Shown here piece after piece: positions 44,101-57,602 of a stretch of 64,000 nucleotides of DNA. The notes under the pieces are model-generated. The model ran no database searches and was not told where the DNA came from. It worked only from the letters and a program-made list of their open reading frames with translations. Both the position numbers and the translations under genes were made by a program. Position 1 is the first letter of the stretch. Each line of letters begins with the position of its first letter. The DNA is from Anaerolineae bacterium (lineage in GTDB: Bacteria > Chloroflexota > Anaerolineae > UBA3071), in the NCBI GenBank assembly GCA_029907105.1, contig JARYMM010000006.1, positions 1-64,000 on the forward strand. Direction: 5' to 3'.

Positions 44101-44223
44101 CAGACTGTCCAACGTGGACGAGGCAGGGATCGGGAAACGCCCCATCCGCTCCTGCCTGTTTTCCGAGGGGCATAGCCCAAAGGGGTGCTCACCCCGCCCT
44201 TTCCACAACGAAGGAGGACAAAG

Positions 44224-45792
44224 ATGTACCGCAAATTGTTTGCTGCATTGGTGGCCTTCAGCCTGCTCGTGGTCCTGGCCGGCTGCCCGGTGCCGCAGGT
44301 GGTCGAGAAAGAGGTGGTCAGGACCGTCGAGGTGGTGAAGGAAGTGCCGGTAGAGAAAGAGGTGATCAAGGAGGTCGTCGTCACCCCTACTCCCCTGGCC
44401 AAGCCCTTCGAGGGAGTGGAGGTCAACATCCTGACCTTCACCGGCCCCCAGATCGCTGAACCGCTGCAGCGGCGCGGCCCCGACTTCACCGCCCTGACCG
44501 GGGCCAAGATCAACGTGATCATCGTGCCCTTCAGCGACCTGTATCAGAAGATCCTGACCGACCTGGCTACAGGGACGAATGCCTTCGACGGTTTTGTGTT
44601 CGCGCCACAGTGGATGGTGGACTACATTGTCCCCGGTTACCTGGAGGATCTGACCGACCGGGTGGCCAATGACCCGGCCATCGAGTGGGAAGACATTGCC
44701 CCCTTCTTCCGCGATTTCAGCGCTACCTATGAAGGCCGCATCTACACCATCCCCCTCGACGGCGACTTCCACATGGGCTACTACCGCACCGACCTGATTG
44801 ACACACCGCCGAAGACATGGGACGAGTACCTCGCCCTCGCCGCGCAGTTCCACGGCCAGGATCTCAACGGTGACGGCGATCCCGACTATGGCTCCTGCAT
44901 CTCCAAGAAGCGCGGCGCTCAGGCCTACTGGTTCATCACCTCCATCGCCAGCGCCTTCATCCAGAGCCAGGGCACGTCGCAGGGCGCTTTCTTCGACACC
45001 GAGACGATGAAGCCTCTGTACAACAACGAGGCCTTCGCCAAGGCGTTGGAGATTTACAATGAGACCACGAAGTATGGCCCGCCGGATGAGCTCAACCTGG
45101 ACGTGGGCGACACGCGCAGCCTGTTCACCTCCGGCCGCTGCGCGCTCTCCCTGGACTGGGGGGACATCGGCACGCTGGCCATTGACCCCACCATCTCCGT
45201 GGTGCAGGACAAGACCGGTGCCTTCATCCTCCCCGGCGCGACAGAGGTGCTGGACCGGGCGACCGGCAAGCTGGTTCCTTGCGATGAGACCACCTGTCCC
45301 TACGCGATTGACGGCGTGAACCACGCCCCATTCGCAGCCTATGGCGGTTGGTCGGGCGGCATCAACGCCGCTGCCGATCCCATCGTCAAGGACGCGGCCT
45401 ACGCCTTCTTCTCCTACATGTGCCAGCCGGCGCAGTCCAATGTGGACGTGACCATTGGCAAGACGGGCTTCAACCCTTACCGCACCTCGCAGTTCCTGAA
45501 CCGCCAGCAGTGGGTGGAGGCGGGCATGAGCCCTGAGGCCGCGGCCAACTACCTCGGCGCTATCGAGGATAGCCTCAACAGCCCGAACATGGTGCTGGAC
45601 CTGCGCATCCCGCAGAACCAGCGCTATCAGCAGGTGGTGCTGGACACGGCCGTCAGCCAGTTCCTGGCCGGAGAGATCACTCTGGAACAGTGCATGCAGC
45701 AGATCTACGACGGCTGGGAGGAGATCACCGAAGAACTGGGACGCGCGGAGCAGCTCGCCGCCTATCGCGGCACTCTGGGCGTGAAGAAGTAG
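44224..45792 (+). CDS. Sugar-binding lipoprotein of ABC importer
   Basis: 522 residues from ATG 44224 with AAGGAGGA upstream. Lipobox LVVLAGC, then VVEKEVVRTVEVVKEVPVEKEV charged spacer. Class I solute-binding protein with DFHMGYYRTDLIDTPPKTWDEYLALA. It contains a short Asp-rich stretch (DLNGDGDPDYG) of EF-hand type. The substrate is a carbohydrate; downstream genes suggest a sugar or sugar acid that needs isomerase and dehydrogenase steps. Confidence 0.92.
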   Translation: MYRKLFAALVAFSLLVVLAGCPVPQVVEKEVVRTVEVVKEVPVEKEVIKEVVVTPTPLAKPFEGVEVNILTFTGPQIAEPLQRRGPDFTALTGAKINVIIVPFSDLYQKILTDLATGTNAFDGFVFAPQWMVDYIVPGYLEDLTDRVANDPAIEWEDIAPFFRDFSATYEGRIYTIPLDGDFHMGYYRTDLIDTPPKTWDEYLALAAQFHGQDLNGDGDPDYGSCISKKRGAQAYWFITSIASAFIQSQGTSQGAFFDTETMKPLYNNEAFAKALEIYNETTKYGPPDELNLDVGDTRSLFTSGRCALSLDWGDIGTLAIDPTISVVQDKTGAFILPGATEVLDRATGKLVPCDETTCPYAIDGVNHAPFAAYGGWSGGINAAADPIVKDAAYAFFSYMCQPAQSNVDVTIGKTGFNPYRTSQFLNRQQWVEAGMSPEAAANYLGAIEDSLNSPNMVLDLRIPQNQRYQQVVLDTAVSQFLAGEITLEQCMQQIYDGWEEITEELGRAEQLAAYRGTLGVKK

Positions 45793-45813: not shown

Positions 45814-45849
45814 CCTCAAGGCCCGGCTGGTAAGGGCCGGGCCTTGAGG
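45814..45849 (+). other. Intercistronic mRNA hairpin
   Basis: CCTCAAGGCCCGGC-TGGTAA-GGGCCGGGCCTTGAGG, a stem of about 14 bp with no T-run, between the binding protein and first permease. Such stems usually raise the ratio of binding protein to permease. Confidence 0.8.
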
Positions 45850-45942
45850 TACTGCACCTTTGCGCCCCCTGCTCCCTTGCGATTTTGCGACCCTGCTCCC
45901 GCCGGACAGCCATGTCCTCGGATGGGTATTGGGGGAGGCGTT

Positions 45943-47079
45943 ATGCAGGCTGAACGAGCATTGGAAAACCCCAACGGGCGATGGCACAGGCTGAGCGAAT
46001 GGGCTGAACGCATGGCCGGCAATGTCTTCATCTGGCCGGCCGTTCTGGTCGTCCTCTTCCTGTCCATCTTCCCGCTCATTATCTCTCTCTATCTATCGTT
46101 ATCGCGCTTCAAGTTCGTCAAGGGCGGGTTCGAGATCAAGTTTGTCGGTCTGGCCAACTACGCCAAGTTGCTGTTCGGCAGCGAACGGACGCATTTTCTG
46201 GGCCTCCTGGCTACTCCCTCTCCTCTGGGCTGGCTCGTGCTGGCTGTCGTGGCCGCATTTCTGCTCCGCTCCCTGGTGCGCTATGCCCGCCGCGAAACCC
46301 GCTCCCTCGGCGGCCTGGTCGGCCGCATCCTGTCGGCGGCCATCTTGAGCTTCGGCGTCTGGCTGCTGGTGTGCACCCTCAGCAAGGGCGGCCGGCCCGG
46401 CACATTGGTCGTCACGCTGATCTACGTCTTTGTGGGCATTATCGTGCAATATCTTCTGGGGCTTGGCCTGGCCGTGCTGACCACGCAGCAACTGCCGGGC
46501 CGCCGCTTCTTCCGCGTCGTCTTCCTGCTGCCGATGATGATCACGCCGGTGGGAGTGGCCTACGTGTTCCGCATGTTGACCGATACCGACAAGGGGCCGT
46601 TCCGGCCCATCTGGCAGGCGATGGGGTTGGGGCTTTTCTCCTGGGTTAACGACCCCTGGGGGGCGCGGGCGGCGGTGATGATCGGCGACATCTGGCAGTG
46701 GACGCCCTTCATGTTCATCGTGCTGCTGGCCGCTCTGGAAGGCCAATCCGTCGAGTTGATCGAAGCAGCATTGGTAGACGGCGCCAATCGCTGGCAGATT
46801 TTCTGGAGCATCACCCTGCCCCAGATCCTGCCCGTCAGCACGACGCTGATCCTGATCCGCATGATCGAGGCCTTCAAAATCGTGGACCTGCCCAACGTGC
46901 TCACCAACGGCGGGCCGGGCACGGCCACCGAGTCCCTGACTTTACAGGCTTATATCAGTTGGCGGTCTCTCGACCTGGGCGGCTCGGCGGCCATCGCCTA
47001 CCTCCTGTTATTGATGGTCACCTTCATCGGCATGGCCTACGTTAACCTGATCCGCAGCCGCGTGGCGGAGGGGGGATGA
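45943..47079 (+). CDS. Sugar ABC transporter permease (MalF type)
   Basis: 378 residues from ATG 45943 with GGGGGAGG upstream. N-terminal membrane segment VFIWPAVLVVLFLSIFPLII, then a non-standard membrane pair before the permease domain (SPLGWLVLAVVAAFLL; LSAAILSFGVWLLV). EAA loop: LIEAALVDGANRWQIFWSITLPQILP. Its stop overlaps the next start (ATGA). Confidence 0.93.
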   Translation: MQAERALENPNGRWHRLSEWAERMAGNVFIWPAVLVVLFLSIFPLIISLYLSLSRFKFVKGGFEIKFVGLANYAKLLFGSERTHFLGLLATPSPLGWLVLAVVAAFLLRSLVRYARRETRSLGGLVGRILSAAILSFGVWLLVCTLSKGGRPGTLVVTLIYVFVGIIVQYLLGLGLAVLTTQQLPGRRFFRVVFLLPMMITPVGVAYVFRMLTDTDKGPFRPIWQAMGLGLFSWVNDPWGARAAVMIGDIWQWTPFMFIVLLAALEGQSVELIEAALVDGANRWQIFWSITLPQILPVSTTLILIRMIEAFKIVDLPNVLTNGGPGTATESLTLQAYISWRSLDLGGSAAIAYLLLLMVTFIGMAYVNLIRSRVAEGG

Positions 47080-48116
47080 TGGAAGCAATGCAAAGGCTGT
47101 TCCAGCGCCGATCACTGCACAGGCCCTCTCCTGTGGGGATGGCCTTGTCATACACCATGCTGGGGACATGGGCCCTGGTCGTGCTGTTCCCCCTGTACTG
47201 GCTGCTGGTGACCTCTTTCAAGCTGCCCGTTGATGTGAATATGGGGCCCTTTTATCTGCCCGGCGTGGATTTCAAGCCCTCGCTGCACGCCTGGGAGTAT
47301 ATCTTGGTGGGCGATCTCAGCAATGATACCATCCGCCCTTACATCAACACGGTGATCGTGGCCCTCACCAGCGCCTCGCTGGCGCTGATATTGGGCACTG
47401 CCGCCGCCTATGGTCTGACCCGCTTTCAGTATCGGCCGCGCCTGGGGGCTATCCTGTGCTTCATCGGCTGTCTGGCCCTGGCCATCATCGCCGTGACCCT
47501 GGGAGCGCCCTGGCAGATCGCGCTGGTCGTGGCCCTGGTCCTGTTCGTCATCCTGTTGCAGACCATCGGCAAGCGCTTCCAGCGCTCCCTGGGCAACAGG
47601 GACATCGCCTTCTGGCTGATCTCGCAGCGCATGTTGCCACCGGTGGCCGTGGTGATCCCCATCTACGTGCTGTTCCAGCGGCTGCATCTGCTGGACACAC
47701 GCACGGCCTTGATCATCACCTATCTGGCTTCTAACCTGCCCATCGTCGTCTGGCTGATGCGCGATTACTTCCAGACCATCCCCATCGAGCTGGAGGAGTG
47801 TGCGGCCATTGACGGTGCCTCGCGCTATCGCATCTTCTGGGCTATTGTGGTGCCCCTGGCCCTGCCCGGGCTGGTGGCCACGTTCCTGTTCGTGCTGGTG
47901 TTCGCCTGGAACGAGTACCTGTTGTCGTTATTCCTGTCCAGCTCGCGTGCGCAGACGTTGCCGCTGACCGTGGCGGCGCAGAACGCCACCCGCGGGCCGC
48001 AGTGGTGGTACATGTCGGTGCTCATCCTGATCATGATCGTCCCCGTCATCGCCATGGCCATCGCCCTGGAGCGCTACATCGCCCGCGGGCTGTTGGTGGG
48101 CGCCATCAAGGGCTGA
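47076..48116 (+). CDS. Sugar ABC transporter permease (MalG type)
   Basis: 346 residues. Permease domain with six segments plus an extra pair in the middle (LGAILCFIGCLALAIIAVTL; IALVVALVLFVILL). EAA loop: LEECAAIDGASRYRIFWAIVVPLALPGL. It ends IARGLLVGAIKG, like the trehalose-cluster permease. The importer again has no ATPase gene. Confidence 0.93.
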   Translation: MMEAMQRLFQRRSLHRPSPVGMALSYTMLGTWALVVLFPLYWLLVTSFKLPVDVNMGPFYLPGVDFKPSLHAWEYILVGDLSNDTIRPYINTVIVALTSASLALILGTAAAYGLTRFQYRPRLGAILCFIGCLALAIIAVTLGAPWQIALVVALVLFVILLQTIGKRFQRSLGNRDIAFWLISQRMLPPVAVVIPIYVLFQRLHLLDTRTALIITYLASNLPIVVWLMRDYFQTIPIELEECAAIDGASRYRIFWAIVVPLALPGLVATFLFVLVFAWNEYLLSLFLSSSRAQTLPLTVAAQNATRGPQWWYMSVLILIMIVPVIAMAIALERYIARGLLVGAIKG

Positions 48117-48192
48117 GGCCGAGGAAGGACGAATTTAATGAGGGGAAACGTCGGTCATGCTCGAAACGGAGCACGTTGCCCGGAGGCTGGCC

Positions 48193-49644
48193 ATGGCCTT
48201 GATGAGCAGAGACGACTATATTGAATCTCTGCGCGGTATGAACAAGCGGGTGTTTATCATGGGCCAGGAGGTCACGAACCCGGTTGACCATCCCCTGGTG
48301 CGGCCGTCGCTCAACGCCTGCGCCATGACCTACGAACTCGCCCGGCAACCCGAGTACGCCGGCCTGATGCTGGCCACCTCCAACCTGACAGGGCAGACGG
48401 TCAACCGGTTCACACACCTGCACCAGAGCACAGCAGACCTGGTGGCCAAGGTGAAGATGCAGCGCCTGCTCGGACAGATGACAGGGTGTTGCTTCCAGCG
48501 CTGCGTGGGCCTGGACGCGCTGAACGCCCTGGATTCGGTGACCTATGACATGGACCAGGCCCTGGGGACCAGGTACCATGCCACCTTTCGCCACTACCTG
48601 CGGCAGGTGCAGGAACGCGACCTGGTGGTGGACGGCGCCATGACCGACGCCAAAGGCGACCGCCAACTGCGCCCTTCACAGCAGGCAGACCCGGACCTGT
48701 TCGTGCACATCGTGGAGAAGACATCCGATGGCCTGGTGGTGCGCGGCGCCAAGCTCCACCAGACCGGAGCGCTGAATTCGCACGAGATCATCGTTATGCC
48801 CACACAGACGCTCTCGGAGAAGGAGCGGGACTACGCCGTCGCCTTCGCCGTCCCGGCCGACGCCCCCGGCATCGTGATGGTCTACGGCCGGCAGCCTTCG
48901 GACACGCGCCGGCTGGAAGACAGCCAGCTCGATGTGGGCAACCCCCAGTTCGGCGGGCACGAGGCGGTGATCATCCTGGATGACGTGTTCGTCCCCTGGG
49001 AGCGGGTGTTCATGGCCGGCGAATACGCCTTCAGCGGGCTGCTCGTCGAACGCTTTGCCGGCTATCACCGCCAGAGCTATGGCGGCTGCAAGACGGGCGT
49101 GGGCGATGTGTTGATCGGAGCGGCGCAGGCGGTGGCTCAGGCCCAGGGCACGGACAAGGCATCGCACATCAAAGACAAGATCGTGGAGATGATCCACCTC
49201 AACGAGACGATGTATGCCTGCGGCATCGCCTGCTCGGCGGAGGGCCAGGCGACGGCTTCAGGCACCTATCTGGTCAACCTTTTGCTGGCCAATGTGTGCA
49301 AGCTCAACGTGACCCGTTTCCCTTACGAGATCGCGCGCCTGGCCCAGGACATCGCCGGCGGCCTGCTGGTCACGTTGCCATCGGAGAAGGACCTGGCTCA
49401 TCCCGAAGTGGGGCCTTACCTGAAGAAGTATCTGCACAGTGTGGATCGCTATACGACGGAAGAACGCTGCCGGATGCTCCGGCTGATGGAGAACCTCACC
49501 CTGGGGCCGGGGGCGGCGGCCTATCTCACGGAATCCATGCATGGCGCCGGCTCGCCGCAGGCGCAGAGGATTATGCTGGCGCGGCTGGCCGACCTGGAGG
49601 AGAAGGTGCGCCTGGCGCGCAGGCTGGCAGGAATTGAGCAATGA
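48193..49644 (+). CDS. abfD: 4-Hydroxybutyryl-CoA dehydratase (AbfD-like)
   Basis: 483 residues (AbfD about 490) from ATG 48193 with GGAGG six bases upstream; the track start at 48157 is longer than the family. The sequence follows AbfD along its length: SNLTGQTVNRFTHLHQSTADL, CCFQRCVGLDALNA (C-x3-C cluster ligands), VDGAMTDAKGDR, and ERFAGYHRQSYGGCK with the His and third Cys. FAD and [4Fe-4S] radical chemistry converts 4-hydroxybutyryl-CoA to crotonyl-CoA. HpaB-type monooxygenases lack these cysteines. Its stop overlaps the FGGY kinase start (ATGA), and it follows sugar permeases, an unusual setting. Confidence 0.93.
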   Translation: MALMSRDDYIESLRGMNKRVFIMGQEVTNPVDHPLVRPSLNACAMTYELARQPEYAGLMLATSNLTGQTVNRFTHLHQSTADLVAKVKMQRLLGQMTGCCFQRCVGLDALNALDSVTYDMDQALGTRYHATFRHYLRQVQERDLVVDGAMTDAKGDRQLRPSQQADPDLFVHIVEKTSDGLVVRGAKLHQTGALNSHEIIVMPTQTLSEKERDYAVAFAVPADAPGIVMVYGRQPSDTRRLEDSQLDVGNPQFGGHEAVIILDDVFVPWERVFMAGEYAFSGLLVERFAGYHRQSYGGCKTGVGDVLIGAAQAVAQAQGTDKASHIKDKIVEMIHLNETMYACGIACSAEGQATASGTYLVNLLLANVCKLNVTRFPYEIARLAQDIAGGLLVTLPSEKDLAHPEVGPYLKKYLHSVDRYTTEERCRMLRLMENLTLGPGAAAYLTESMHGAGSPQAQRIMLARLADLEEKVRLARRLAGIEQ

Positions 49645-51152
49645 CCAGGGAAACCTATATCCTGGCCCACGATCTGGGCACCACGGGCAATAAAGCCAAT
49701 CTCTTCAACGGACGGGGACAGCCGGTGGCCAGCAGTTTCGTCGGCTACGAGACGGCCTACCCTCACCCCGGCTGGGCGGAGCAGGAGGCCGCCGGCTGGT
49801 GGCGGGCGGTGTGCCAGTCAACACGGCGACTGCTGGCGCAAAGCGGGGTTGCCGCAGGTGACATCGCCGTCATCAGCTTCAGCGGGCAGATGATGGGCGC
49901 GCTGCCCGTGGACGGGGAAGGCAGGCCACTGCGCCCGTCCATCATCTGGGCCGACCAGCGGGCCACGGCCGAGGCCGGGCTCCTGGCCGAACGCTGCGGC
50001 TTCCAGGAGGTCTATCGCCGTACAGGGCACCGCGCTGGCGCTTCCTATAGCGCGGCCAAGATGCTGTGGATCCAACGCCATCAGCCGGAACTGTATGCCC
50101 GCGCCCACAAGTTCCTGCAGGCCAAGGACTACGCCGCCTACAAGCTCACCGGCGTCTTCGCCACCGACTATTGCGATGCCTCGGGCACCAATCTCTTCGA
50201 CCTGGCGCGGCGCGACTGGGCGCTGGATATCGTGGAGGCTATCGGGCTGGACCCGCACAAGCTGCCGCCGGTACATCCGTCCACGGCTGTCATCGGCCGG
50301 GTGACGCCACAGGCAGCAGCGGAGACGGGCCTTCTGGCGGGCACGCCGGTGGTCATCGGCGGCGGCGACGGCGGCTGCGCCACCGTGGGGGCGGGTTCCG
50401 TGCAGCCGGGCGACGCCTACAACTACGTCGGTTCCTCGTCCTGGATCGCCGTGACCGCCGAGCAACCCCTCTACGATGCGCAGATGCGCACCTTCACCTT
50501 CGCCCATCTGGACCCGCAGCTCTGTTTCCCCACCGGCACGATGCAGTGCGCCGGCGGTTCCTTCGACTGGCTGGAGCGGCTGCTGCGCGGCGATGGCCAG
50601 GGCCAACTGTACGAGGAACTGAGCGCTGCGGCGGCGGAGGTACCGCCGGGGGCCGGTGGGCTCCTCTTCCTGCCCTATCTTATCGGCGAACGCAGCCCGC
50701 ACTGGAACCCGCGGGCGCGCGGGGCCTTTGTCGGGCTGACCATGACGCACGGCCGCGCCGAGATGGCCCGTGCCGTGCTGGAAGGCGTGGCCTTCAACCT
50801 CAAGATCATCCTCGATGCCTTCCTGGAGCAGGGGGCGGAGATCACCGCCATGCGGCTCATCGGCGGCGGGGCGCGCAGCCCCGTGTGGCGGCAGATCCTG
50901 GCCGATGTCTACGGGCTGCCCATCCTGCGGCCGGCGCTGCTGGCCGAGGCCACGGCGCTGGGCGCGGCCATCGCCGGCGGCGTAGGGGTGGGGCTGTTCC
51001 CCGACTTCAGCGTGGCCCACGAGTTCGTGCAGGTAGAAGAGGCAGAGCGGCCCAATGGCGCAGCGCAGGCGCGCTATGCCGAGGTCTATCCGCTGTTCCG
51101 GGAGGCCTATCGGCTGCTGGAGCCGATGTTCGAGAGATTGGGGCAGGTGTGA
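49641..51152 (+). CDS. FGGY-family carbohydrate kinase (xylulokinase-like)
   Basis: 503 residues. ATP-binding DLGTTGNKANLFN at the start and phosphate-2 region VVIGGGDGGCATVGAG; the C-terminal FGGY region GARSPVWRQILADVYGLPI. Conserved Asp in VISFSGQMMG...WADQRATAEA. It resembles xylulokinases but sugar specificity is not certain. Start overlaps the abfD stop, so the kinase and dehydratase are made together. Confidence 0.93.
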   Translation: MTRETYILAHDLGTTGNKANLFNGRGQPVASSFVGYETAYPHPGWAEQEAAGWWRAVCQSTRRLLAQSGVAAGDIAVISFSGQMMGALPVDGEGRPLRPSIIWADQRATAEAGLLAERCGFQEVYRRTGHRAGASYSAAKMLWIQRHQPELYARAHKFLQAKDYAAYKLTGVFATDYCDASGTNLFDLARRDWALDIVEAIGLDPHKLPPVHPSTAVIGRVTPQAAAETGLLAGTPVVIGGGDGGCATVGAGSVQPGDAYNYVGSSSWIAVTAEQPLYDAQMRTFTFAHLDPQLCFPTGTMQCAGGSFDWLERLLRGDGQGQLYEELSAAAAEVPPGAGGLLFLPYLIGERSPHWNPRARGAFVGLTMTHGRAEMARAVLEGVAFNLKIILDAFLEQGAEITAMRLIGGGARSPVWRQILADVYGLPILRPALLAEATALGAAIAGGVGVGLFPDFSVAHEFVQVEEAERPNGAAQARYAEVYPLFREAYRLLEPMFERLGQV

Positions 51153-51586: not shown

Positions 51587-51982
51587 GTGAAGAGCCTGGC
51601 CCTCACCGTGCTGCCGGGGCGGCTGGCCATCTGTCGTCTGGCGGCAGATGCGCCCCTGCCCGCAGGGCTTGATCGCGCCCACTTCTGCTCGGTCACCCGC
51701 ACTCCGGAGGAGCTTTCGCTTGTCCTGCCGGAGGAGATGGTGGAGGCCGGCTGGCAGGCTGAGACAGGTTATCGCGCCCTGCAGGTGCTGGGGCCGCTCG
51801 ATCTCAGCCTGACCGGCGTGCTGGCCGCCCTGGCCGCACCGCTGGCCGCGGCCGGCGTGAGCATTTTCGCCATTTCCACCTACGACACGGACTATGTCCT
51901 GGTCAGGGAGGGCGACCTGGGGAAAGCACAGCGGGCGCTGGTGGCGGCAGGGCATGAGGTGACCGAGTGGCCGGGGCAATGA
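51587..51982 (+). CDS. ACT-domain protein (CASTOR-like)
   Basis: 131 residues from a GTG that touches the previous stop. Two ACT-like halves: LALTVLPGRLAICRL / FCSVTRTPEELSLV and LQVLGPLDLSLTGVLAALAAPLAAAGVSIFAISTYDTDYVLVRE. Proteins of this kind bind amino acids as sensors. No partner enzyme is adjacent, so what it senses is unknown. Confidence 0.85.
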   Translation: MKSLALTVLPGRLAICRLAADAPLPAGLDRAHFCSVTRTPEELSLVLPEEMVEAGWQAETGYRALQVLGPLDLSLTGVLAALAAPLAAAGVSIFAISTYDTDYVLVREGDLGKAQRALVAAGHEVTEWPGQ

Positions 51983-52080: not shown

Positions 52081-52125
52081 GTAACTTCGCTTGCTTTGAG
52101 TAAGCTGGACAGAAGAGGAGATGCG

Positions 52126-53214
52126 ATGGAGGAGCTCATCATCCACCTGCTGCCTGAGGTTTTCGGCGAGGGAGAGCGAGTTCTCGTCAAGGCCGGGGAA
52201 TTGTCTGCCGTGGCTTTCCGCTACGACAGCGGCGTGTGCGGGCTGCGGCTGCAAAACGAGCGCGGCCACATCATCCTGCTGCCCTTCCAGGGCCAGCAAA
52301 TCTGGGACGCCGTCTTCGGGGGCCGCACGCTGACCATGCGCTCCATGTTCACCGAACCGCGGCCGACGCAAGTCTACCTGGAGACCTACGGCGGCTTCCT
52401 GCTGCACTGCGGGGTCACAGCCATGGGCGTCCCTTCGGCCGAGGACACCCACCCGCTGCACGGCGAGCTGCCCAACGCGCCCTACCAGCGGGCCTGGCTG
52501 GCCATCGGCGAGGACGAGCGGGGCGTCTACATGGCCCTGAGCGGCGAGTATCAACACACCGTAGCCTTCCAGACCAACTACATCGCCCGGCCGGAGGTGC
52601 GGCTGTACGCCGGTTCGACGCGCATGCCCATTTCCATCACCATCGAGAACCTCAAGCGCACGGAGATGGAGCTCATGTACCTGGCGCACGTCAACTTCCG
52701 GCCCGTGGACGGTGGCCGGCTGGTCTATAGCGCCCCCTGCACGCCCGAGCACGTGCGCGTGCGCTCCAGCATCCCTTCGCACATCCGCCCACCGGCGGGA
52801 TATGCCGGGTTCCTGCAGGAACTGGCCGGGCATCCCGAGCGGCACAACGTGCTATCGCCAGGGCTGGCCTTCGATCCCGAGGTGGTCTTCTTTATTGACT
52901 ACCTGGCCGATGAGGCGGGGTGGGCGCACTCCATGCAGGTACATCCCGACGGCTCGGCCGATTTCATCAGCCATCGCCCTGAGCAGTTGGACCACGGCAT
53001 CCGCTGGATTTCGCGCACGCCGGATCAGGACGCCCTGGGCATCGTGCTGCCGGCCACCGCCGAGCCGGAGGGCTACCACGCCGAAAAGGCCAAAGGCAAT
53101 GTCCGCACTCTGCCCGGCGGCACTTCCGTTCGTTTCGACATGGAAGCTGGCTACCTGACGCCAGAAGAAGCACGGGATATGGAAGTCAAAATCAAACGCA
53201 TACTGGCCTGCTGA
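52126..53214 (+). CDS. DUF4432 (aldose 1-epimerase-like) protein
   Basis: 362 residues from ATG 52126 with AGAGGAG upstream. Galactose-mutarotase-like fold: GHIILLPFQGQQIWDAVFGGRTLTM, HPLHGELPNAPYQRAWL (conserved His), MYLAHVNFRPVDGGRLVYSAP. DUF4432 proteins accompany sugar catabolic genes and are thought to equilibrate anomers. In this context it probably works on the imported sugar. Confidence 0.85.
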   Translation: MEELIIHLLPEVFGEGERVLVKAGELSAVAFRYDSGVCGLRLQNERGHIILLPFQGQQIWDAVFGGRTLTMRSMFTEPRPTQVYLETYGGFLLHCGVTAMGVPSAEDTHPLHGELPNAPYQRAWLAIGEDERGVYMALSGEYQHTVAFQTNYIARPEVRLYAGSTRMPISITIENLKRTEMELMYLAHVNFRPVDGGRLVYSAPCTPEHVRVRSSIPSHIRPPAGYAGFLQELAGHPERHNVLSPGLAFDPEVVFFIDYLADEAGWAHSMQVHPDGSADFISHRPEQLDHGIRWISRTPDQDALGIVLPATAEPEGYHAEKAKGNVRTLPGGTSVRFDMEAGYLTPEEARDMEVKIKRILAC

Positions 53215-53546: not shown

Positions 53547-54575
53547 ATGAGAACTCTATGGGGCAAGGCAGGCTTTCGGTTTGAGATGCGGGAGGTGCCG
53601 ACGCCGGAGCCGGGGCCAGGCGAGGTAGTGGTCAAGATCGCCGCCTGCGGCATCTGCGGCACCGACCGGCACTTCCTGCGCCATAACCAGGAGTGGACGC
53701 CGCTGGGCCATGAGGTGGTGGGCACTATCGCCGCCGTAGGGCCGCACGTGGAACGCTGGCAGGGCGGCGAAACGGTCATCGTGGAGAACCACACCGGCTG
53801 CGGCGTCTGCGAGCAGTGCAAGAACGGCCGCGCCCTCTATTGCCAGAACCTGACCACTTACATGGAGGATCGCGCCGGCTTCGCCGATTACCTGCGGGTG
53901 CGGGCGGACATGGTGCAGGCTTATGATGCGGGGACGCTGAGCCCGCAGCAGGCGGCGCTGGCCGAGCCACTGACCGTGGCCCTCGACCTCCTGCAGCGCA
54001 CCGATCCGGACCTCAACGACGAGGTGGCCGTCTTCGGCCCGGGGGCTATCGGGCTGATGGTCACCCGGCTGGCCAAGCTGCGCGGGGCGCGGCGCGTCTT
54101 CCTGGCCGGCTCCAACCGCTCCACGCCGCGTGGCCGTCACCGGCTGGAGGTGGGCCGGCAGATGGGTGCCGACGTTGTGCTGGCCGAGGCCGAGGACGAC
54201 ATCGTGGCCGAAATCAAAGCCGCCGTGCCGCAGGGGGTGGACCGGGTGCTGGTCACGGCGCCGCCGCGCACACTGCCTGCAGCCTTCGAGATCGCCCGCT
54301 TCGGGGCCATCGTCGGCTTCATCGGCATCGAGTTCGGCGAGGGAGCGAACGTGACCTTCGATGCCAACGCCTTCCACTTCCAGAAGCTGCAACTGCGGGC
54401 CTCCCACGCCATCCCCAACCACTACTTCCCCATGGCGCTGGACTTGCTGGCCCGCCGCGTGGTGGATCCCGATTTGCTCCTCAGCCACGTCTTTTCTCTC
54501 GACGAGTACGAGGAGGCGTTTCGGGTTCTGACCGACCCGCAGCAGACGGCGATCAAAGTCGTATTGGTGCCCTGA
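53547..54575 (+). CDS. Zinc-dependent sugar/polyol dehydrogenase (MDR family)
   Basis: 342 residues. Catalytic zinc: ACGICGTDRHFLRH and GHEVVG; structural zinc: CGVCEQCKNGRALYC. Rossmann loop: VAVFGPGAIGLMVTRLAKL. Typical of sorbitol/threonine/galactitol dehydrogenases that work in sugar pathways. It precedes the isomerase-like gene, with about 100 bp between. Substrate unknown. Confidence 0.92.
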   Translation: MRTLWGKAGFRFEMREVPTPEPGPGEVVVKIAACGICGTDRHFLRHNQEWTPLGHEVVGTIAAVGPHVERWQGGETVIVENHTGCGVCEQCKNGRALYCQNLTTYMEDRAGFADYLRVRADMVQAYDAGTLSPQQAALAEPLTVALDLLQRTDPDLNDEVAVFGPGAIGLMVTRLAKLRGARRVFLAGSNRSTPRGRHRLEVGRQMGADVVLAEAEDDIVAEIKAAVPQGVDRVLVTAPPRTLPAAFEIARFGAIVGFIGIEFGEGANVTFDANAFHFQKLQLRASHAIPNHYFPMALDLLARRVVDPDLLLSHVFSLDEYEEAFRVLTDPQQTAIKVVLVP

Positions 54576-54677
54576 AACAACAGGGATTGCGGAATGTGGA
54601 ACGCAGGACGAGAAATGAGGATTTCCATTCCGCAATTTGCAATGGTCGTTAAGGATGTCACAAAAGGAGACGTATCC
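54576..54677. repeat. Short inverted repeat ATTGCGGAAT
   Basis: GATTGCGGAATGTGGAA faces TTCCATTCCGCAATTTGCAA in the space between the dehydrogenase and the isomerase-like gene. Same word (ATTCCGCAATC) as at 37.13 kb. Confidence 0.65.
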
Positions 54678-56396
54678 ATGACAGAAGCGATTCGTCTGGG
54701 AGAAACGGTGAGCGCAGAGGCGCGCACGCCGGCCATCGGCGTGTTCGTCGCCGGCGACCCGCGCATTGATGAGGAGAGCCGCCAGCGCTGCCGTAACATC
54801 GTCAAGATGGCTGCCGACATCCTGGCCCAGCGGGTGAAGCTGCCCGATGGCTCGCCGGCCAGGGTGGTCTGGTCGCCGGTGCTGGTGGACGGCGAAGCGC
54901 AGGCGGACCTGGTGGCCCGGCAGTTTCTGGATGCCGGCGTGCGGGTGCTGGTCTGCACACCGGACACCTGGGCCTTTCCACAGCTCAGCGTCATCTCCCT
55001 GCTGCAGCAGTTCCCCAAGGACACGCCGATCAACTTCACCTGCGGCAACAGCGGCCCTAAGCCGGGCGTGGTCTTCTCCCACGCCATCAACGGCGCGCTG
55101 GCCCAGTATGGCCGACTGGCCCATCTCAACGTGGGCACCTGGCCAGACACAGGGATGCATCCGGTGATGACCGAGGCCACCGCCCAGGCCATGGTGGACT
55201 GGGCCTTCGCCGCCGTGACCACGCAGGCGCTGAAGGGCCGCCGGGTGGTCATCTTCGGCCACGATTCCATGGGCATGGAGACCGCCCTGGCCCACGTCAT
55301 CCCCACGCGACGCCAGTTCGGCCTGGAGATCACCCGTCTGGACATGAAGCTCCTGGCCGACATGTTGCAGAAGGGGGCCTACGACGCCGAGGAACTGAAG
55401 GCTTTCCGGGCCTGGGTGGACCGGCATCTGGGCCCGCGGCTGGAGCTGCGCGACGAGGCCGATTCCCGGCGCTTCGATCAGAGCCTGGCCCTGTATCTCA
55501 TCGTGCGCGACCTGCTGAAGGACCTCAACGCGGTGGGCGGCGGCTTCATGAGCCAGTTGGAGTGGGGCTCCGACCCGCGGGGCATCCCGCTGCCGGTGGC
55601 CGACGCCATGGAGTCCTTCTTCAACTCCACCTTCGACCACAACGGGCGCAAGGTGCCCCTGCCCTTCGCCACGGAAGCGGACGTGCAAGGGCTGTTGACC
55701 ATGCTCTTCTTCTCCGCTTTGACTGGCGGCAATCCGCCGCTGTTCATGGACTTCCGCAAGGTGTGGGAGCGGTGGGAGCTGGAAGCTCTGGCTGCCGAGA
55801 TAGGGATGGAGCTGCCGGCAGACGAGCTGTGGGCGCAGAAGGGTCTGGTGGACGGCGACAACTCCGGCAGCGCTTCGCTGGACTGGGCAGCCGCGCCGGG
55901 GGCCAGCGTCGAGGAGATCATGGCCCGGGTGGGCTTCCCGCTGGCCGACGAGCACTACTTCCCTGGCCTGGGCAACTCGGTCACCTTCGTCTCCCCCGGC
56001 GGGCTGGAGGGCATCGCCGGCCGGCTGACCTACAGCAGCCTTTCGGGACTGTTCGGCCTGACCTGGGACGAGGCGACGACGGCGGAGGTGCCGGAACCGT
56101 TGGCCCGGGCGCTTTGCCAGGCGACGACGGCCACCTGGCCGCACACCTTCGTCGTGCCCAGGTACGCCACCATGGGCGAGTACAAGCACTTCGCCCCGGC
56201 CAACCACTTCCACATGATCCAGGGGCTGAGCCCAGCCCGGCTGGAGTACTGGATGGACTTGAACAACGTGCTTTCCCAGACCCCCTGGGCAGCCCGGCCA
56301 GCCTATATCGAGGGTGTGGACCGGCCGATCCCGCTGCTCTATCTCATGAACGGCGGCGAGACAAATGCCAAGCTCATGCTGGGCCGGGGGCTGTAG
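54678..56396 (+). CDS. L-fucose/L-arabinose isomerase-family protein
   Basis: 572 residues from ATG 54678 with AAAGGAGA upstream; the track start is in repeat sequence. FucI-type: VVFSHAINGALAQYGRLAHLNVG, FFNSTFDHNGRKVPLPFATEADVQGLLTMLFFSALTGGNPPLFMDFRKVW, and ANHFHMIQG near the end. These correspond to the metal-binding Glu/Asp/His of the family. It should isomerise an aldose to a ketose, perhaps a deoxy sugar, but paralogues in this group are uncharacterised. It follows dehydrogenase and precedes a LacI gene. Confidence 0.88.
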   Translation: MTEAIRLGETVSAEARTPAIGVFVAGDPRIDEESRQRCRNIVKMAADILAQRVKLPDGSPARVVWSPVLVDGEAQADLVARQFLDAGVRVLVCTPDTWAFPQLSVISLLQQFPKDTPINFTCGNSGPKPGVVFSHAINGALAQYGRLAHLNVGTWPDTGMHPVMTEATAQAMVDWAFAAVTTQALKGRRVVIFGHDSMGMETALAHVIPTRRQFGLEITRLDMKLLADMLQKGAYDAEELKAFRAWVDRHLGPRLELRDEADSRRFDQSLALYLIVRDLLKDLNAVGGGFMSQLEWGSDPRGIPLPVADAMESFFNSTFDHNGRKVPLPFATEADVQGLLTMLFFSALTGGNPPLFMDFRKVWERWELEALAAEIGMELPADELWAQKGLVDGDNSGSASLDWAAAPGASVEEIMARVGFPLADEHYFPGLGNSVTFVSPGGLEGIAGRLTYSSLSGLFGLTWDEATTAEVPEPLARALCQATTATWPHTFVVPRYATMGEYKHFAPANHFHMIQGLSPARLEYWMDLNNVLSQTPWAARPAYIEGVDRPIPLLYLMNGGETNAKLMLGRGL

Positions 56397-56576: not shown

Positions 56577-57602
56577 GTGGGAAGAGTGACCATCAAGGAT
56601 GTGGCGCGGCGCGCCGGCGTATCCACAGGCACCGTCTCTAATACCCTGAGCGGCAAGCAGCCCGTGTCGGAGGCGACACGGCAGCGGGTGCTGGAGGCTA
56701 TCGAGGAGTTAGGCTATCATCCCAACGAGGTGGCGCGCAGCCTGGTCACGCAGCGCAGCCACACACTCGGCGTCGTGGCCATGGGTTTCGATTACTTCGG
56801 CCCTTCTCAGACTGTGACCGGCATCGAGAGAGAAGCCAGACGTCAGGGATACCTCGTCACCCTCAGTGTTGTCAGCCCTGACGATACAGACGCCGATGAG
56901 GTGCTGCAAGCCCTGGTGGACCGCCGCATGGATGGCATCATCTGGGCCGTGCCGGAGATTGGCGACAATCATGCCTGGATCGAGAACGGCATCCCCCTGG
57001 AATTACCCGTGGTGTTCACGAACATGGAGAGACGATCGGACGTCGCCGCGACGGTCGTTGACAACTTCGCCGGGGGGAAGACGGCCACGGAGCATTTGCT
57101 GAGCCAGGGGCGTCGTCGGATCGGGCACATCACCGGCCCCCTTGTCTGGTGGGAGGCCCGCGAGCGGCGACGGGGCTGGCAGGCGGCGCTGCGCGCCGCC
57201 GGCCTGGCCGATCAGACGACCTGGTGGGAAGAGGGAGACTGGTCGGCCAGGAGCGGCAGAGAAGCCATGGAGCGGCTGCTGGCCCGCTGCCCGCAGGTGG
57301 ATGCCGTCTTCGTACAGAATGATCAGATGGCCCTGGGAGCCATCACGGCCCTGCGTGGTCGTGGCCTGCGGGTGCCGGAAGACGTTGCCCTGGTAGGCTT
57401 TGACGATATCCCCGAGGCGGCCTACTTCGAGCCTCCCCTGACCACGATACGGCAGGACCTCTATGAGCTTGGCCGTGCCACTGTGCAAACGCTGCTGGAA
57501 CTCATTGAGACCCCTGATGCCCGACAGTGCTACATCTCACTAAAGCCCCAACTGATCGTGCGGGAGAGCTGTGGCGGTGTCATCTCCCGCGCACCGTCGT
57601 GA
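56577..57602 (+). CDS. LacI-family repressor
   Basis: 341 residues from GTG 56577 (GTG 56586 also possible). Helix-turn-helix VTIKDVARRAGVSTGTVSNTLSGK, hinge YHPNEVARSLV, and a full sugar-binding domain ending QLIVRESCGG. It precedes the ribose-type ABC cassette, which it probably controls through the operator at its own promoter and a shared transcript. Confidence 0.95.
   Translation: MGRVTIKDVARRAGVSTGTVSNTLSGKQPVSEATRQRVLEAIEELGYHPNEVARSLVTQRSHTLGVVAMGFDYFGPSQTVTGIEREARRQGYLVTLSVVSPDDTDADEVLQALVDRRMDGIIWAVPEIGDNHAWIENGIPLELPVVFTNMERRSDVAATVVDNFAGGKTATEHLLSQGRRRIGHITGPLVWWEARERRRGWQAALRAAGLADQTTWWEEGDWSARSGREAMERLLARCPQVDAVFVQNDQMALGAITALRGRGLRVPEDVALVGFDDIPEAAYFEPPLTTIRQDLYELGRATVQTLLELIETPDARQCYISLKPQLIVRESCGGVISRAPS

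Follow-up and report, generated by a model that had tools for sequence, protein, structure and literature searches.

The window, the whole stretch of 64,000 nucleotides analyzed here from an Anaerolineae genome, carries an abfD-like 4-hydroxybutyryl-CoA dehydratase gene lying between the second permease gene of an ABC sugar transporter and an FGGY carbohydrate kinase gene on the same strand. As the original prediction had it, the dehydratase follows sugar permeases and overlaps the kinase by four bases: the two reading frames (48193-49644 and 49641-51152) share an ATGA at 49641-49644. The gene run comprises:

44185..45792, + strand: MalE-like extracellular solute-binding protein of an ABC sugar transporter (Pfam SBP_bac_1, E 1e-27)
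45844..47079, + strand: ABC sugar permease 1 (57-81% identical orthologues in abfD-free operons)
47076..48116, + strand: ABC sugar permease 2 (FGGY kinase directly 3' in 12 relatives)
48182..49644, + strand: abfD-like 4-hydroxybutyryl-CoA dehydratase ORF with its ribosome-binding site (RBS) (PF11794, E 7e-101; PF03241, E 3e-75; PDB 1u8v, E 1.7e-203)
49641..51152, + strand: FGGY carbohydrate kinase, xylulokinase-like (TIGR01312)
51587..51982, + strand: small ACT-domain protein (PF13840, E 5e-21; 70% identical orthologue after FGGY in genome G018)
52123..53214, + strand: DUF4432 protein, a conserved kinase partner (PF14486)
53547..54575, + strand: zinc-dependent alcohol/polyol dehydrogenase (PF08240/PF00107; 88% identical orthologue in the G018 operon)
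54594..56396, + strand: L-fucose isomerase-like protein, divergent (PF07881, E 1e-31)
56577..57602, + strand: LacI-type repressor (PF00356/PF13377)

Permease 1 probably starts downstream of 45844. The kinase scores 418 bits against the xylulokinase (XylB-type) model TIGR01312, passing its curated cut-off of 380, and has an 83% identical orthologue in G018, a sister genome with no detectable abfD. With 130 bits, the L-fucose isomerase-like protein falls short of the equivalog cut-off of 775. In both the window and G018, the kinase and DUF4432 genes flank one for an ACT-domain protein, and DUF4432 is found near FGGY in G018, G058, G176, G083, G031, G130, G127, G239 and G055. No CoA-transferase or other CoA-activating enzyme is present among the annotated operon genes of the window. 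The earlier remark that no 4-hydroxybutyrate-CoA transferase or ligase is in view holds for this annotated stretch; a 4-hydroxybutyrate-type CoA-transferase is encoded elsewhere in the genome, on contig C43. The codon divergence of abfD (0.090) is within the range of its neighbors and its GC3 likewise matches theirs; a foreign-looking gene was considered and rejected, there being no signal of recent transfer.

The dehydratase gene and its product

The abfD frame is intact and remains open up to 49644 from either 48157 or 48193. The latter is likely the true start, because a GGAGG lies ~6 nt 5' of its ATG, a similar GGAGG-spacer-ATG layout precedes the abfD genes of the closest relatives, and DNA similarity to the abfD regions of L029/L191, L109, L030, L112 and L113 begins at 48182, the RBS. 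HpaB_N and HpaB domains span the product from end to end. Its best PDB match is the crystallized AbfD of Clostridium aminobutyricum (1u8v; E 1.7e-203 over residues 15-493, 61% identity over 480 columns), which bears out the end-to-end likeness proposed earlier. The two AbfD-type ligand motifs that had been named are also present, as CCFQRC and as HRQSYGGC within HRQSYGGCK. In an alignment of 112 sequences, all nine residues checked (1u8v numbering) are retained in the window protein and in about 100 relatives. Four of these, C99, C103, H292 and C299, are the predicted [4Fe-4S] ligands (three cysteines and one histidine). The others, T190, E257, Y296, K300 and E455, we take from the literature to be the catalytic positions, and their letters were confirmed on the 1u8v sequence.

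Some differences from characterized members of the fold family are apparent. 1u8v carries a short insert near residue 405 that is absent from the window protein, and, unlike C. aminobutyricum AbfD, the window gene sits in a sugar operon and not beside a CoA-transferase or 4-hydroxybutyrate dehydrogenase gene. PDB 6vjr, deposited as a vinylacetyl-CoA Delta-isomerase, belongs to the same family (59% identity) and has the same nine residues, but is one residue shorter from Y296 to C299 (YVCK versus YGGCK in the window protein) and groups in the tree with class genes L121 and L123-L125, away from the window protein. HpaB flavin monooxygenases such as 4-hydroxyphenylacetate 3-hydroxylase (2yyg) share the PF11794/PF03241 fold family but match far more weakly (E 6.5e-42; 177 bits against the NCBIfam HpaB-1 cut-off of 480).

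The tree suggested as a check nests the window gene within true AbfD. L109, L029 and L030 share a supported clade (96*) with it, and 1u8v belongs to the same broad group. Taken with the PDB scores, the tree groups the window protein with AbfD and not with HpaB monooxygenases or a divergent AbfD-like subfamily. These comparisons support an AbfD-family 4-hydroxybutyryl-CoA dehydratase, a near-orthologue that adds to the family from this bacterial class. A new substrate accommodated by an altered active site was also considered; no changed residue was found at the nine positions checked, and nothing in the sequence evidence supports such a role. The gene is the single copy of the HpaB/AbfD family in this genome.

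The sugar operon and abfD in related genomes

Searches of 298 genomes of the class with the kinase, permease 2 and the DUF4432 protein were followed by a reading of the neighborhoods of the matches. The order permease 1-permease 2-FGGY, on one strand and with abfD absent, occurs in at least 12 genomes (L190, L195, L207 and L249-L257), with the kinase gene following permease 2 after a gap of 13-389 bp. A binding-protein gene lies within the stretch read in 11 of the 12, and such binding proteins, 65-84% identical to that of the window, head the operon. In G058 (L190), the binding protein, both permeases and the kinase are 81-83% identical to their window counterparts, and the permease 2-kinase gap is 13 bp. 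G018, of a sister family and 73% complete, has the kinase, ACT protein, DUF4432 protein and dehydrogenase at 70-88% identity, and abfD was not detected in it; G083, 95% complete, has the entire sugar operon and lacks abfD. The binding protein-permease-permease-FGGY-DUF4432 operon of the class, as in G058, G176 and G083, therefore matches the gene order of the window, with parts 59-84% identical, but only in the window does abfD separate permease 2 from the kinase. Among the genomes compared, no other has this insertion. Upstream of the kinase operon in G018, a LacI-type regulator is apparently fused to a URO-D-like domain (L189:5638-7854, 738 aa).

The closest abfD genes (82-86% identical) stand alone, with unrelated housekeeping or orphan genes as neighbors: thymidylate kinase (tmk) and a glyoxalase-like (VOC) gene in L191, a PIN-domain gene in L109, a Fic protein gene in L030, minD/ftsW in L110, and argS in L111 and L112. 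Nothing recognizable from the sugar operon is present in the neighborhoods read around these relatives. At the DNA level, the window resembles L029/L191 and L109 over about 48182-49634, a stretch that takes in the RBS and ORF and nothing beyond. G006 (93% complete) has abfD at 86% identity and no close FGGY or DUF4432 protein, and in G058 abfD (85%) and the kinase gene (83%) lie on separate contigs. Even within genus g40 abfD changes place, as it lies by argS in two genomes (L111, L112) and by minD/ftsW in a third (L110). The abfD gene of L112 ends in GCAATGA, with the same ATGA overlap but onto an unrelated gene, and the overlap is for this reason not evidence of shared function.

More distant abfD relatives adjoin CoA-transferase and 4-hydroxybutyrate dehydrogenase (iron-dependent alcohol dehydrogenase, Fe-ADH) genes, and never lie in a sugar operon. 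A 4-hydroxybutyrate/butyryl-type CoA-transferase gene lies within 3 kb of abfD in 17 of 97 relatives' loci and an Fe-ADH gene in 10 of 97, both lower bounds as many contigs are short; other loci have crotonase, hydroxybutyryl-CoA dehydrogenase, thiolase or acyl-CoA dehydrogenase genes nearby. Neighboring genomes thus place abfD alone or with 4-hydroxybutyrate genes, against the sugar-gene association that had been envisaged.

The abfD-FGGY pair was sought in the class, in 298 and then 396 genomes, and in a wider set of genome contigs (best 80 loci). It was found outside the window neither in the class abfD genomes whose surroundings were read nor among the best 80 contig loci, and a conserved module was rejected given the 12 operons that lack abfD. 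Other FGGY genes near abfD were set aside as operon partners: that of L113 is 3.6 kb distant on the opposite strand, and those of the Jordarchaeia loci L042 and L049 are convergent and 29-30% identical. Nor do the families co-occur positively across the 298 genomes, with abfD and the FGGY kinase together in 4 (6.3 expected) and abfD and DUF4432 in 3 (4.4 expected). A post hoc count points in the opposite direction, as abfD is present somewhere in three (G000, G058 and G192, but not G018) of the four genomes whose FGGY kinases are closest (≥74%), compared with 24 of the 298 overall. The titles and abstracts searched contain no report of abfD in a sugar operon; one paper mentions 4-hydroxybutyryl-CoA dehydratase solely as a carbon-fixation pathway step (PMC9802188). 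With the pair found in this genome only and the active site unchanged, the sugar-derived acid pathway or new substrate read from the kinase pairing loses its footing.

A probable insertion of a lone gene into a pre-existing operon

Because relatives have the sugar operon without abfD, and abfD without sugar genes, the pairing looks accidental and not like a new pathway. Very probably, judging from these comparisons, the window encodes an ordinary 4-hydroxybutyryl-CoA dehydratase whose lone gene landed in a sugar operon already present in this lineage. In such a scenario, abfD, with its own RBS, would have come to separate the FGGY kinase gene from permease 2, would be co-transcribed with the sugar genes solely owing to its landing place, and translation of the kinase would now probably restart at the ATGA overlap.

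The protein families suggest how the enzyme could function. Firstly, 4-hydroxybutyrate would be activated by a CoA-transferase. Contig C43 of the same genome encodes a 435-aa CoA-transferase that, in the PDB, matches 4-hydroxybutyrate CoA-transferases best (E 9e-164 to 5e-123). Its family is broad, also including acetate and butyrate transferases, and is common (180 of 298 class genomes), so that its presence is compatible with a 4-hydroxybutyrate route without proving one. A 2-oxoacid oxidoreductase pair, recognized by reading of the sequences, lies near it. Secondly, AbfD would convert 4-hydroxybutyryl-CoA to crotonyl-CoA. Finally, enzymes encoded on contig C111 would take crotonyl-CoA to acetyl-CoA. 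This contig carries genes for a thiolase, a 3-hydroxybutyryl-CoA dehydrogenase, a crotonase, two acyl-CoA dehydrogenases and EtfBA, a predicted set that is enough for this use of crotonyl-CoA; it also carries a TetR gene, and TetR and both Etf subunits were assigned by reading of the sequences. The genome has three Fe-ADH matches, the stronger two just 28-34% identical to abfD-linked Fe-ADHs, and none of them could be assigned with confidence as a 4-hydroxybutyrate dehydrogenase.

A functional abfD-sugar pairing, if true, would extend AbfD to a new role in metabolism. The enzyme might have been co-opted for a pathway of sugar or polyol metabolism, in which the operon makes a 4-hydroxy acid that is activated elsewhere and dehydrated by AbfD while the kinase acts on a parallel sugar. 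The co-directional placement with the ATGA overlap, the zinc-dependent dehydrogenase and isomerase-like protein in the same gene run, and the lack of a further abfD copy would fit such recruitment. We nevertheless regard it as very unlikely, in view of the full operon that 12 genomes conserve without abfD, the nearest abfD relatives without sugar genes, the unchanged AbfD active site, and an annotated operon free of CoA-activating enzymes. There is a similarly slim chance that AbfD is normal and its insertion was selected, such that 4-hydroxybutyrate use is induced along with sugar uptake through regulatory coupling and no shared pathway. The gene is indeed well integrated in its reading frame, its stop-start overlap and its codon usage, but an equal overlap with an unrelated gene exists in L112, and the arrangement occurs in no second species, which makes selection indistinguishable from chance. 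More generally, capture in this single lineage, whether of a radical 4-hydroxyacyl-CoA dehydratase now acting on a sugar-derived 4-hydroxyacyl-CoA or of 4-hydroxybutyrate use tied to the sugar regulon, appears very improbable. A chimera, in which assembly or binning had joined a piece of abfD to a contig of the sugar operon, is very unlikely. In its favor, the genome is a draft assembly of 133 contigs, and abfD similarity ends at the breakpoints. Against it, two exact junctions would be required within 1.5 kb, one placing an RBS-led gene behind permease 2 and the other creating the ATGA overlap with the kinase gene, and the codon usage of abfD agrees with that of the operon.

For the preferred reading, a lone abfD gene in a pre-existing operon, the abfD-free relatives offer a clear empty-site comparison for the insertion. 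Together with the overlap in L112, they illustrate how a place in an operon can be misleading, even where the genes overlap by ATGA. As abfD is the sole copy in the genome, its placement could still matter for regulation.

Divergent AbfD-like proteins

A second AbfD-like subfamily (L033:5098-6621, L023, L026 and L027; G125, G136 and G090) is 43-47% identical to the window protein. Its members retain C99, C103, H292, Y296, C299 and K300, have alanine in place of E455 (AG[VL]HGGGSP versus ESMHGAGSP), and carry KxHNTxAPY where KxHQTGxxN is otherwise found. G136, G090 and the genome of L033 each encode this subfamily alongside true AbfD, and it may act on another substrate. Two further proteins are divergent: L025 (G199) has lost ligands, and L028 (G271) retains the cluster ligands, with serine, aspartate and glycine at T190, E257 and E455.
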